The notes under the pieces are model-generated. The model did no database searches, had not been told where the DNA came from, and saw nothing but the letters and a program-made list of their open reading frames with translations. DNA of 64,000 nucleotides from assembly GCA_021817605.1 (NCBI GenBank), contig JAKAUN010000006.1, positions 62,001-126,000 on the forward strand, in the 5' to 3' direction. Below, in pieces: positions 9,001 through 63,814 of the stretch (position 1 is the first letter of the stretch; every line of letters begins with the position of its first letter). A program made the position numbers and the translations under genes. Origin of the DNA: Thermoplasmata archaeon. GTDB lineage: Archaea > Thermoplasmatota > Thermoplasmata > Lutacidiplasmatales > UBA184.

Positions 9001-10774
9001 GGCGGAGAACTTCTCGATCGGCGTCGAGCTCCTCGGCTCCCTACGAGGTACGGTGAGCGGCGTGACGGCGAACGGGAGCGAGGGCGTCGCCGCCGTCGGC
9101 AGCAGCGACATCTCCGTCAGCGAGGTCCGCGCGACCAACCAGAGCCTCGCGGTGCTCGGTGTCGGGGACGAAAGCTGCTGGGTCAACGCGACGAGCGCTA
9201 CCACGGGTTCGATGGCGGTCGACCTCGTGAGCACGGACGCGGTCCATGTCGTTGGCGTCAGTGCGACGGCCGCGGTCTCGGGAGGCGCGAGCTACAACTA
9301 CGTCGGGCTGCCGCCGGTCGTGGCGACCGTCCGGACGACCTCGACGACCCTCTCGTCGATCCGCTCCACAGGCTACCCGGTCGCGCTCGTCGACGTGGAC
9401 TCGGTGGATCTCGCGGTCCAGACGCTCAACGCGAGCTGGGGGGAGTATGGCCTCCGCCTCAACGGGACCTACGGCGGGCTCTTCTCGGGGATCGCGGCCT
9501 ACCACGACGGCGTCGGTCTCCTGATGAACGACAACGCCGGGGCCAACGTGGTCAGCATGAGTTCGTTCGTCGACTGCACGAGCTTTGGCGTGATGATCGC
9601 CTCGGGGTCGGGCAATCTCGTCTACGACAACAGCTTCGTCGGCAACAACGGCGCGACCAGCAGCTACAACGCGACCCACGTCCAGGCCTACAGCGACGGG
9701 GCGTTCAACAGTTTCAGCAGCCCTTCCGGGATCGGAAACTACTGGGCCGACTGGCACACCTACTCCCACGGCGTGCTCGCGCCGTACTACGTCGGCAACG
9801 GGGCCTGGGACTTCCACCCGCTCGGCGCCCCCGAGGGGATGTTCCTCGTCACCTTCCAAGAGGCCGGCCTCGCCCCGGGGATCTCCTGGTCGGTGACCTT
9901 CAACGGCCAGACCGAGAGCTCCCAGGGCAGCAGCCTGAGCTTCGCGGCCTACCCGGGCAGCTACGCCTTCACGGTCGGTGGAGCCACGGGCTGGCAGATC
10001 GGGATCCCGTCCGGGACGGTGGTCGTCAGCAACGCGGGGCTCAACGTCTCGATCCCGTTCTCGGCGCTGGTCGAGGTCGAGCTGCTCCAGAGCGGCCTCG
10101 CCTCCGGGGCGAGCTGGTCGGCAATCGTCGGCGGGCAGATGGAGACCGGGCAGGGCTCCGCGCTGCTCTTCTTCGTGCCGGCGGGAGCGAGCTACCTCTA
10201 CCAGGTCGTGCCGGTCGCCGGCTACGAGGTCTCCCCCGCGAGCGGGACCGTGCCCGTCGGCAGCGCGACCTATACGGTCGCCGTGACGTTCCGGGCCGTC
10301 GTCTACCCGGTCACCTTCTCGGAGACCGGGCTCTCCCCCGGGACCGTCTGGACGGTGACCGTGGACGGGGTCGCGCACGCGACCTCCGGCGATGCGGTCA
10401 CGGTCGATCTGCCGAACGGCTCGTTCAGCTACTCGTTCGCCAACGTGACCGGGGCCTCCGTCTCGGCCGGCCGCGGCTCGGGAACGGTGGACGGCAGCGC
10501 GACAGGTGTCGCGGTGAGCTACGTGCCGACCCATCCGCCGGTCTACGTGCAGGTCACCACGTTCGACGAGCTCTGGGGGCTCGGCCTCGCGATCGCCGTG
10601 ATCGCCCTCGTCGTGGGGCTGGTCGCGTGGCGTGCCCACCGCCAGCGGCCTCCGATGCGCCGCGACCCGGTGGCGCCAGCCCCGTCGGCGTCGGTCGCGA
10701 CGCCCGCGGCGGGGAGCGCCTCCGGGCCAAAGGCCGACTGGAGCGAGGAGTCCTCCTCCGGGAGCCCGAAGTAG
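6062..10774 (+). CDS. Giant surface protein: thermopsin (peptidase A5) domain, beta-helix, beta repeats, C-terminal membrane anchor
   Basis: A 1570-residue exported protein. Residues 9-32 are a hydrophobic signal/anchor ending in LPAGAL. About 35-160 is a Ser/Ala/Pro-rich leader like a propeptide. Residues 165-455 match thermopsin, the acid protease family A5: PAPMGLADLG, VFWTQNVLDV, FIDNIWNFSS, a run of Tyr near 296-299, and an IYDTVAF strand. About 470-655 is a second beta-rich domain. About 660-1226 is a long run of right-handed beta-helix (PbH1) coils rich in Asn, Thr and Ser, ending in the NosD-like GNYWADW. About 1260-1495 hold three beta repeats of the F-x-E-x-GL-x-x-G-x-x-W type. Residues 1504-1525 are a membrane helix followed by a 45-residue basic/acidic tail inside the cell. 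Many N-x-S/T sites suggest N-glycosylation. Confidence 0.88.
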   Translation: MLAPRRWKLGLWITPIVLVVCALMVLPAGALTSAHGTRSPSGAAPTVTPASGAASPSALETRYASLGAPPPGATTLSRQSVGLGAPGTRLVPSISGAPGLSRLASSLPLSNVSPSLTSSASAAQQVLGLVRSGSLPANVAYLPSSRLFPGALSSPSQVVSPSYNRTPAPMGLADLGLRASGAYAVYTPEVQGSVTLVGYNASGGSLYEDTGGLFAGRSPNAALTPWQSGLQLNTVVTNVSDPTSNTGVFWTQNVLDVSGSTLQFIDNIWNFSSPGARLGNGTISSGNGTVAQGLFYYDYGPSIPLSFPVSIDLYNTVANVLGRTTVSFGYTITEGATVYQGIYDTVAFTSDPSLPLLAPSNLIDGKAFTPAGALYDAELVLGGPGAGSNAVVQSLNGTMSLRYRNATGWLPSPAAYSYGADTGETAIGVAGTWAATGVEHVLQGPSMTYGLWNTTAGVPAGHINVNLVLQPIYGLVFIGPPSTNDYNLSWAPTTAGGQLVTELPPLPTYDLTAFADGFDQTNQTLTGNTIGSLSLASSLSPVWNAPIYMNGNAQAAALGADTGTWSGTGPISFSHFEVDVNLTFNQLNDYGYPEFDLFWANGVSSYALSVDNVSQGPDVHLFPAPFTIYYTVYHEYGRQRTLPNLGDQFAVWGGVNDVFSNLSLVGIAPTPNSTPLGGAVSLWHSAGVRVTDVTATNDTFGVWAASSDGLVMTDSSVDLGFSVLALADSSNALVTNLSAVGSLAAVFAMGGSANHFVGLNADSGFTGLYDLSSNSSTVNYLNASYGAKGAYLANTSGVEITNSRLTGSSTIGVLAVNSDRVLVQDLVANNGSTGAVLLGGNYSTTTQILANDYSTGVLVVFANNTTVRGVSALNGSRSTLLFGANYTSLSSVSARNLSTGLLAQGSNHTSVSGLTAALSSAGALGSELSFTSFDGVTVSLGSDGVLLAHAVNTTVTNLLANDSTGFEASVSNNTSVSSVTAENFSIGVELLGSLRGTVSGVTANGSEGVAAVGSSDISVSEVRATNQSLAVLGVGDESCWVNATSATTGSMAVDLVSTDAVHVVGVSATAAVSGGASYNYVGLPPVVATVRTTSTTLSSIRSTGYPVALVDVDSVDLAVQTLNASWGEYGLRLNGTYGGLFSGIAAYHDGVGLLMNDNAGANVVSMSSFVDCTSFGVMIASGSGNLVYDNSFVGNNGATSSYNATHVQAYSDGAFNSFSSPSGIGNYWADWHTYSHGVLAPYYVGNGAWDFHPLGAPEGMFLVTFQEAGLAPGISWSVTFNGQTESSQGSSLSFAAYPGSYAFTVGGATGWQIGIPSGTVVVSNAGLNVSIPFSALVEVELLQSGLASGASWSAIVGGQMETGQGSALLFFVPAGASYLYQVVPVAGYEVSPASGTVPVGSATYTVAVTFRAVVYPVTFSETGLSPGTVWTVTVDGVAHATSGDAVTVDLPNGSFSYSFANVTGASVSAGRGSGTVDGSATGVAVSYVPTHPPVYVQVTTFDELWGLGLAIAVIALVVGLVAWRAHRQRPPMRRDPVAPAPSASVATPAAGSASGPKADWSEESSSGSPK

Positions 10775-13170: not shown

Positions 13171-13845
13171 GTGGAACTTCCCGAGAGCCTGTGGACGCGC
13201 CAATTCACGGTCGACAGGCCGGAGGTCGTGCTCGAGGTTGAGGACCGTCTCGAGCTCGGCGGCGGGGTGACGATGCTCGAGGTCCGCGTGAGCGCCTTCG
13301 AAGGGGGCGGGTGGAGCGAGGAGGTCCGCTCCCTGCCGGGCGTCGAGGACGTGGAGCTGTTGGACGCGGTCGAGGGTTCGGAGACCTTTCGCGTCTTCTT
13401 CCGGGGCCGGACGTTCCTCCCGCTCATGCGACGTCTCGGGCTCGTGCGGCACTTCCCGTTCCCCATCCAGAACGGCGTCGCGACTTGGACGCTCACCGGG
13501 CCCGAGCCCAAGGTGAGGGCGCTGCTTCTGTCCCTCGAGAAGGCGACCGACGGGGTGCGCGTGGTGGCCGTTCGTCACGGCCCGTTCGCGCCGGGCACCT
13601 CGCTCCTGACCCCGCGCCAGCAGGAGGTCCTGCGACGCGCCATGGCGGAGGGGTACTTCGACGTGCCCCGACGGGTCTCGCTCACCGGGCTCGCGGCCAT
13701 GCTGGGCATTGCGATCTCGACGCTCTCCGTCACTCTGGCCGTGATCGAGAAGAAGATCCTCGAGCCGCATGCTGCTGACGCCCTCGGGGGGTTCCGGGGT
13801 GAGAGCCGGTCGACGCCGAGTCGCCCGTTCTCCCGGCGTGGATGA
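13171..13845 (+). CDS. HTH-10 (bacterio-opsin activator-like) transcription regulator
   Basis: A 224-residue protein. Residues 1-150 form an alpha/beta sensor-like region seen in small archaeal Bat relatives (two related beta-alpha segments around LELGGGVTMLEV and VRVVAVRHGPF). The C-terminal 60 residues carry the HTH_10 signature LTPRQQEVLRRAMAEGYFD, then RRVSLTGLAAMLGI and STLSVTLAVIEKKIL as recognition region. The GTG at 13171 is chosen since the family starts at this strand; the in-frame extension to 12961 reads as non-protein low-complexity sequence. A regulator of unknown targets. It faces the divergent DUF488 gene. Confidence 0.82.
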   Translation: MELPESLWTRQFTVDRPEVVLEVEDRLELGGGVTMLEVRVSAFEGGGWSEEVRSLPGVEDVELLDAVEGSETFRVFFRGRTFLPLMRRLGLVRHFPFPIQNGVATWTLTGPEPKVRALLLSLEKATDGVRVVAVRHGPFAPGTSLLTPRQQEVLRRAMAEGYFDVPRRVSLTGLAAMLGIAISTLSVTLAVIEKKILEPHAADALGGFRGESRSTPSRPFSRRG

Positions 13846-16910: not shown

Positions 16911-17019
16911 CGCCCGTGCTGGGATTCGAACCCAGGTCTGAGGCTCCGCAGGCCTCTAGGATAATCCACTGTAGCGGCCCGAGGGTGGATCCTCGGGACC
17001 GTAGCTACCCCACACGGGC
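16911..17019 (-). tRNA. tRNA-Arg(GCG) with a 36-base insertion in the D-loop
   Basis: Minus strand. Acceptor stem GCCCGTG (17019-17013) pairs with CACGGGC ending at 16912, discriminator G at 16911, no encoded CCA. Anticodon arm is GAGGC-CTGCGGA-GCCTC, anticodon GCG. The T-arm is CTGGG-TTCGAAT-CCCAG. Between the D-stem 5' half GGGT plus AG and the rest of the loop TGGATT-ATCC lies an extra segment (about 16969-17004). Without it the tRNA is 73 bases and normal. The insert folds by itself (CCCGAGG with CCTCGGG), and the flanking GTAGC can pair with GCTAC at its end, leaving 3-base bulges, which resembles a bulge-helix-bulge splice motif. Exact ends are uncertain by a few bases because of short repeats. 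Confidence 0.88.
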
Positions 17020-40538: not shown

Positions 40539-40646
40539 TGGGGCTGCCCGAATTTGAATCGGGGTCCCGGGCTCCCAAAGCCCGAAGGATGGACCAGTAG
40601 AGCGGACGGAGGGGCTCCCTCGCGCCCGTAGCTACCCCACAGCCCC
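40539..40646 (-). tRNA. tRNA-Pro(TGG) with a 35-base insertion in the D-loop
   Basis: Minus strand. Acceptor GGGGCTG (40646-40640) pairs with CAGCCCC ending 40540, discriminator A at 40539. Anticodon arm CGGGC-TTTGGGA-GCCCG, anticodon TGG. T-arm CCCGA-TTCAAAT-TCGGG. The D-stem half GGGT plus AG is followed by an extra segment (about 40597-40631) before TGGTCC-ATCC, the same site as in tRNA-Arg. Without it the tRNA is 73 bases. The insert also begins CTACGG and ends CTAC, as in tRNA-Arg. It starts 10 bases after the UPF0179 stop on the same strand, so it may be processed from that transcript. Confidence 0.88.
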
Positions 40647-63709: not shown

Positions 63710-63814
63710 CGCCCTGGTCGGGAGTTCCGGCACGGAGGGGGGACCCTCCGTCGCCTTCGAACCCGAGTCCCAGGCTCGACAGACCTAGATCCTAGACCAC
63801 TAGACTACCAGGGC
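63710..63814 (-). tRNA. tRNA-Asp(GTC) with a 32-base insertion in the T-loop
   Basis: Minus strand. Acceptor GCCCTGG (63814-63808) pairs with CCAGGGC at 63717-63711, discriminator G at 63710. The D-arm is GTCT-AGTGGTCT-AGGA, the anticodon loop CTGTCGA with GTC. The T-stem starts TCGGG-TTCGAA, but the matching T-CCCGA follows only after an extra segment (63724-63755). The segment is a hairpin with ACGGAGGG and CCCTCCGT, 8 base pairs. Without it the tRNA is a normal 73-base tRNA-Asp. No CCA is encoded. A GGTTCATAG element about 30 bases upstream may be the promoter. Confidence 0.87.

Follow-up and report, generated by a model that had tools for sequence, protein, structure and literature searches.

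A conserved D-loop insert in tRNA-Pro(TGG), almost certainly a non-canonical intron, in a Thermoplasmata archaeon with a single homodimeric-type splicing endonuclease

The 64,000-nucleotide stretch of DNA that was analysed (the window) belongs to the 1.75 Mb genome, assembled in 16 contigs, of an uncultured soil archaeon of the Thermoplasmata. It contains the following interrupted tRNA genes with their predicted introns:

40539..40646, minus strand: intron-bearing tRNA-Pro(TGG) gene (from sequence inspection, ortholog search and ARAGORN after intron removal)
40630..40646, minus strand: 5' exon of tRNA-Pro, GGGGCTGTGGGGTAGCT (from the sequence and empty-site orthologs)
40597..40629, minus strand: 33-nt D-loop intron of tRNA-Pro(TGG), between nucleotides 17 and 18 (from alignment and empty-site orthologs)
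40539..40596, minus strand: 3' exon of tRNA-Pro (from the sequence and empty-site orthologs)
16911..17019, minus strand: tRNA-Arg(GCG) gene, with an intron at the same D-loop position as in tRNA-Pro (from sequence inspection, a permissive Rfam search and ARAGORN after intron removal)
16969..17002, minus strand: 34-nt D-loop intron of tRNA-Arg(GCG), with a GTAG:CTAC central helix and a 3-nt bulge on each side
63710..63814, minus strand: tRNA-Asp(GTC) gene with a T-loop intron, missed by default tRNA searches
63724..63755, minus strand: 32-nt T-loop intron (59/60) of tRNA-Asp(GTC)

On the minus strand, positions 40539-40646 read as tRNA-Pro(TGG), GGGGCTGTGGGGTAG-CTACGGGCGCGAGGGAGCCCCTCCGTCCGCTCTAC-TGGTCCATCC... 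The first-pass annotation had described a 35-base extra segment in the D-loop of this gene, between GGGTAG and TGGTCC. Such a segment is indeed present and is shared by 35 of the 41 genomes of the genus, which is not what chance would produce. Its length of 35 bases stands, but the intron proper comprises only 33 nt (ACGGGCGCGAGGGAGCCCCTCCGTCCGCTCTAC), since the tRNA alignment and the insert-free orthologs assign the leading CT to the exon; the Arg intron is 34 nt because the leading CT of its segment is likewise exonic. The borders of the Pro intron are fixed and cannot be shifted, because its ends differ from the adjoining exon bases. The intron forms the hairpin CGGGCG-C-GAGGG/CCCTC-CGTCCG, and removing it in silico, with a predicted spliced junction GTAGCT-TGGTCCATCCTTCGGGCTTTGGGAG, restores a tRNA-Pro(UGG) of normal form, as is seen with archaeal bulge-helix-bulge (BHB) introns. 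Within the same genome the paralogs Pro(CGG) and Pro(GGG) have an uninterrupted D-arm, GGGGTAGCTTGGWCCATCC (GGGGTAGCTTGGTCCATCC and GGGGTAGCTTGGACCATCC, respectively, both without insert), and a search with the Pro gene found no second tRNA-Pro(TGG) gene in this genome. Both tRNA-Pro(TGG) and tRNA-Arg(GCG) were missed by ARAGORN and Rfam at default thresholds; a permissive Rfam search detected tRNA-Arg(GCG) below the gathering score and still missed tRNA-Pro(TGG). The sole ARAGORN call in the window, a tRNA-Gly at 13305-13398 (plus strand), is probably false, having no Rfam support and lying inside overlapping ORFs.

Orthologs of the Pro gene exist both with and without the insert. An insert-free Pro(TGG) ortholog from the same order (L221, GGGGTAGCTTGGTCCATCCTTCGGGCTTTGGGAG...) is identical at the splice junction, GTAGCTTGGTCCATCC, and three further genes from another genus of the same family (L222-L224) also have no D-loop insert, GTAGTTTGG. 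When the 41 genomes of the genus were searched, 35 had the full intron-bearing gene and one a fragment at a contig end; the five in which it was not found are 56-77% complete. Absence of the insert from relatives would have counted against the first-pass annotation, but it was found in relatives from both the genus and the family. When 200 genomes of the class were scanned, the D-loop type turned up in almost every member of the genus and in the majority of the family's other genera. Beyond the family it occurs in Arg in one genome of a second family of the order (G020) and in Pro in one genome of another family of the class (G134), and most other pattern matches outside the family look like chance matches in coding sequence. 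The T-loop intron type is present in several families of the class. Within this order Pro(TGG) is found in three states, namely intron-free, with the D-loop intron, or with an intron at 37/38, the last in two genomes of a sister family (L249 and L250) whose gene has no D-loop intron. Closely related genomes with and without the same intron are available for comparison.

Across the genus the Pro exons are almost invariant, whereas the hairpin of the intron differs at most positions. Folding of individual precursors gave a mixed picture, with clear structures for the Pro and initiator Met introns but not for all; covariation was used in its place. In the basal 6-bp helix of 54 distinct Pro introns, 91.7% of cells were paired, versus 73.4% in shuffles, and 58 double-sided changes were counted, versus 18; none of 1000 shuffles reached the observed values (maxima 81.2% paired and 33 double-sided), the shuffles treating intron sequences as independent and ignoring kinship. 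The basal helix of 39 Arg introns behaved similarly (89.7% paired and 42 double-sided changes, with shuffle maxima of 79.5% and 25), and sliding the helix partners by one or two bases lowered pairing to 37-51%. Such covariation is strong evidence for a selected RNA hairpin outside the mature tRNA.

The exon-intron borders can be compared with the motif that the splicing endonuclease requires. In Arg, the GTAG of the 5' exon pairs with intron positions -6 to -3 in all 40 introns (GTAG:CTRC, 4/4 pairs), and three-nucleotide bulges, CU|A and AN|U, flank this central helix. The Arg motif is therefore the helix between two bulges required by EndA, save that the outer exon helix does not directly abut it, which by inspection holds for the D-loop introns. 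In Pro, the best register uses intron positions -4 to -1, with 4/4 pairs in 45 of 54 introns, and this perfect register places the 3' cut at the end of the helix, without the standard 3' bulge; the standard register, in which a 3-nt 3' bulge is kept, gives 3/4 pairs in 46 of 54. These counts bear out the earlier suggestion that the Pro splice motif is relaxed and weaker than that of Arg, and the borders of the Pro intron can be drawn as a bulge-helix-bulge in a somewhat relaxed form. For the T-loop introns, a central helix of TTCR with intron CGRR or GGRR is possible, with three-nucleotide bulges and the T-stem as outer helix, so that these appear close to the strict motif, as read by eye and with no statistical score.

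The Pro intron is one of many in this genome. An inventory drawn from stretches around tRNA-like matches contains 44 tRNA genes, 16 of which carry non-canonical introns, 17 in all because Lys(TTT) has two, so that the genome has at least 17. Four are D-loop introns, in Pro(TGG), Arg(GCG), initiator Met and Lys(TTT), lying at 17/18 in Pro and Arg and further 3' in the other two; the remaining 13 are T-loop introns at 59/60, in Ser(GCT), Ser(GGA), Ser(CGA), Gln(CTG), Ala(GGC), Gly(TCC), Arg(TCG), Arg(TCT), His, Lys(TTT), Asn, Asp and Glu(CTC). Tyr, Met, Leu(TAA) and Trp have anticodon-loop introns at the canonical position 37/38. After removal of the predicted introns, ARAGORN recognised all 16 interrupted genes as standard tRNAs with the expected anticodon, whereas before removal it failed to recognise 12 of them and called the other four as altered tRNAs. 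The tRNA-Lys(TTT) gene (L068; contig 11 of this genome, G000, near 10171-10300, minus strand) seemingly has a 29-nt D-loop and a 38-nt T-loop intron, and the initiator tRNA-Met gene lies on the same contig (L023; 84080-84182, minus strand), its D-loop intron at a position unlike that of Pro and Arg. A pattern search of the genome found no tRNA-Ile(GAT), and tRNA-Leu(TAG) was likewise not found; both may be interrupted in forms that such searches miss. In practical terms, many tRNAs of this kind escape a default ARAGORN or Rfam scan.

The splicing endonuclease and the ligase expected alongside an archaeal tRNA intron are both encoded in the genome, each by one gene (EndA, and RtcB with an E-value of 4e-168); no second EndA gene was found in the genome. 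The EndA protein (353 aa) carries two PF01974 domains within a single reading frame and matches TIGR00324 above the cut-off and the NCBIfam models for fused-type tRNA splicing endonucleases below their curated cut-offs. Its closest solved relatives are the enzymes of M. kandleri, A. fulgidus and M. jannaschii, and its named relatives come from Thermoplasmata metagenome-assembled genomes, including Candidatus Lutacidiplasma silvani. On this basis the genome is assigned to the order Lutacidiplasmatales or close to it. A structure model of the EndA of a relative, 75% identical (pLDDT 92), matches the A. fulgidus and M. kandleri EndA structures, and the catalytic Tyr, His and Lys are invariant (Y292, H300 and K331, in the C-terminal domain). 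Judged by its fused domains, catalytic triad and single gene, the predicted enzyme is of the alpha-prime-2 (homodimeric) type. The CSL/ASL loops that confer broad specificity on the EndA of A. pernix and ARMAN-2 (PMC6379350) have no counterpart in it: the Lys-bearing insertion upstream of LSLIE is absent from the sequence, and the corresponding stretch, YGSRVGHRLELSLIEA, is equal in length to YGSEKGDLVTLSLIES of the narrow-specificity A. fulgidus enzyme. Compared with the A. fulgidus enzyme there is also a 6-residue insertion after GQLELR; the idea that it might serve as a specificity loop was set aside, because the narrow-specificity M. jannaschii enzyme also has residues there and because the CSL/ASL site is upstream of LSLIEA.

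The insert in tRNA-Pro(TGG) is, with high confidence, a non-canonical archaeal BHB intron in the D-loop that would be spliced via EndA and probably RtcB. Pre-tRNA-Pro would be transcribed with the intron included; the intron hairpin (h) and a central helix H, formed by the 3' end of the intron and the exon GTAG, would present two cleavage sites; the homodimeric EndA would cut at CU|A (5' side) and C|U (3' side); and RtcB would most likely join the exon ends to yield a normal tRNA-Pro. The 13 T-loop introns and the other three D-loop introns, in Arg(GCG), initiator Met and Lys(TTT), would be processed by the same EndA. The computational results cover the position of the intron, its empty-site orthologs, its conservation and covariation, and the single genes for EndA and RtcB; from them we infer cutting and ligation. 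One might instead suppose that the insert is retained, so that the functional tRNA would permanently keep an additional hairpin arm in its D-loop, and the stability of the Pro hairpin and its conserved position would fit this. However, orthologs and paralogs without the insert have a normal D-arm, the sequence of the hairpin is free to drift next to exon bases that are retained, the pairing of the intron ends with GTAG has the geometry of a splice motif, and the genome encodes a splicing endonuclease and RtcB, so that we consider a retained arm very improbable. Even less credence can be given to a pseudogene or an assembly error: although default tRNA finders do miss tRNA-Pro(TGG), the same insert is present in 35 genomes of the genus, the exons are almost perfectly conserved and no alternative tRNA-Pro(TGG) gene was seen in the genome. 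The insert is thus almost certainly a conserved non-canonical tRNA intron, probably removed by an ordinary splicing mechanism.

A separate question, which concerns only origin and is compatible with splicing, is how two unrelated tRNAs came to be interrupted at one site. That the Pro and Arg inserts share their position, as the first-pass annotation had it, is correct: the position is identical, as is the flanking exon (GTGTGGGGTAGCT/TGG), and the introns have their first bases, ACGG, and their closing CCGCT in common. One could therefore view them as recent copies of a single intron that jumped between genes, as in the transposition known from Thermoproteales. Of the ends said to be shared, CTAC does occur in both, but at different distances from the splice site (-4 to -1 in Pro versus -6 to -3 in Arg), and the common ends are in part forced, since the exon GTAG is the pairing partner that both introns require. 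CTACGG, proposed as a marker of the shared type, proved uninformative, with 53 copies in the window versus 26 expected. Nor did the suggested recent spread between the two genes find support, because same-genome pairs of Pro and Arg introns are no closer than permuted pairs (similarity of 0.647 and 0.664, respectively). Both introns are widespread across the family, and a Pro intron occupies the same position in a further family of the class (L228); any copying would accordingly be old. Recent copying is therefore unlikely, and the coincidence is better explained by shared constraints on the site or by an old common origin, the latter being neither shown nor excluded.

Introns in the D- and T-loops of tRNAs are known from Thermoproteales, Thaumarchaeota, Caldiarchaeum and the Asgard Atabeyarchaeia and Freyarchaeia. 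In the open-licence literature we found no earlier report of non-canonical tRNA introns in Thermoplasmatota, and the genome paper on Lutacidiplasmatales (Sheridan et al. 2022, PMC9287336), for which tRNAscan-SE was run, does not mention introns in its main text. The transposed introns of Thermoproteales (a 2010 study) resemble those described here in sitting at the same position in different tRNAs, but they are near-identical copies between tRNAs, which the Pro and Arg introns are not. In published reviews, unusual tRNA introns are associated with heterotetrameric or epsilon-2 endonucleases (PMC4090602, PMC6379350). In Crenarchaeota and Thaumarchaeota non-canonical introns go with an (alpha-beta)2 EndA (PMC4090602), whereas here they occur in a euryarchaeal member of the Thermoplasmata with a single alpha-prime-2 EndA. 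According to Yoshihisa (2014), intron-bearing tRNA genes are few in euryarchaea whose EndA is of the alpha-4 or alpha-2 type, and carry one intron only, at the canonical position (PMC4090602), a generalisation that this lineage contradicts. It is thus a counter-example to the rule linking EndA type and introns, and offers many natural sequences for tests of enzyme specificity. The canonical 37/38 introns of Euryarchaeota, which are expected to be handled by the same class of enzyme, are represented here in Tyr, Met, Leu(TAA) and Trp; the Pro(TGG) intron differs from them in lying in the D-loop. The homodimeric EndA of A. fulgidus and Thermoplasma acidophilum has, as here, two fused domains and the catalytic Tyr, His and Lys; the two are counted among the narrow-specificity enzymes (PMC6379350), whereas in this genome at least 17 non-canonical introns need removal. 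The set of introns kept under this loop-less EndA, in both D- and T-loops, is large and includes some relaxed motifs. We therefore raise, tentatively and with rather more doubt than conviction, the idea that a loop-less homodimeric EndA may attain broad specificity in a manner so far undescribed, or may recognise its substrates via the mature tRNA body; if true, EndA architecture and intron diversity would no longer be linked in the way that is currently accepted. In a paper on the Ferroplasma enzyme, homodimeric EndA is said to be able to cut BHL-like motifs as well (PMC8707768).
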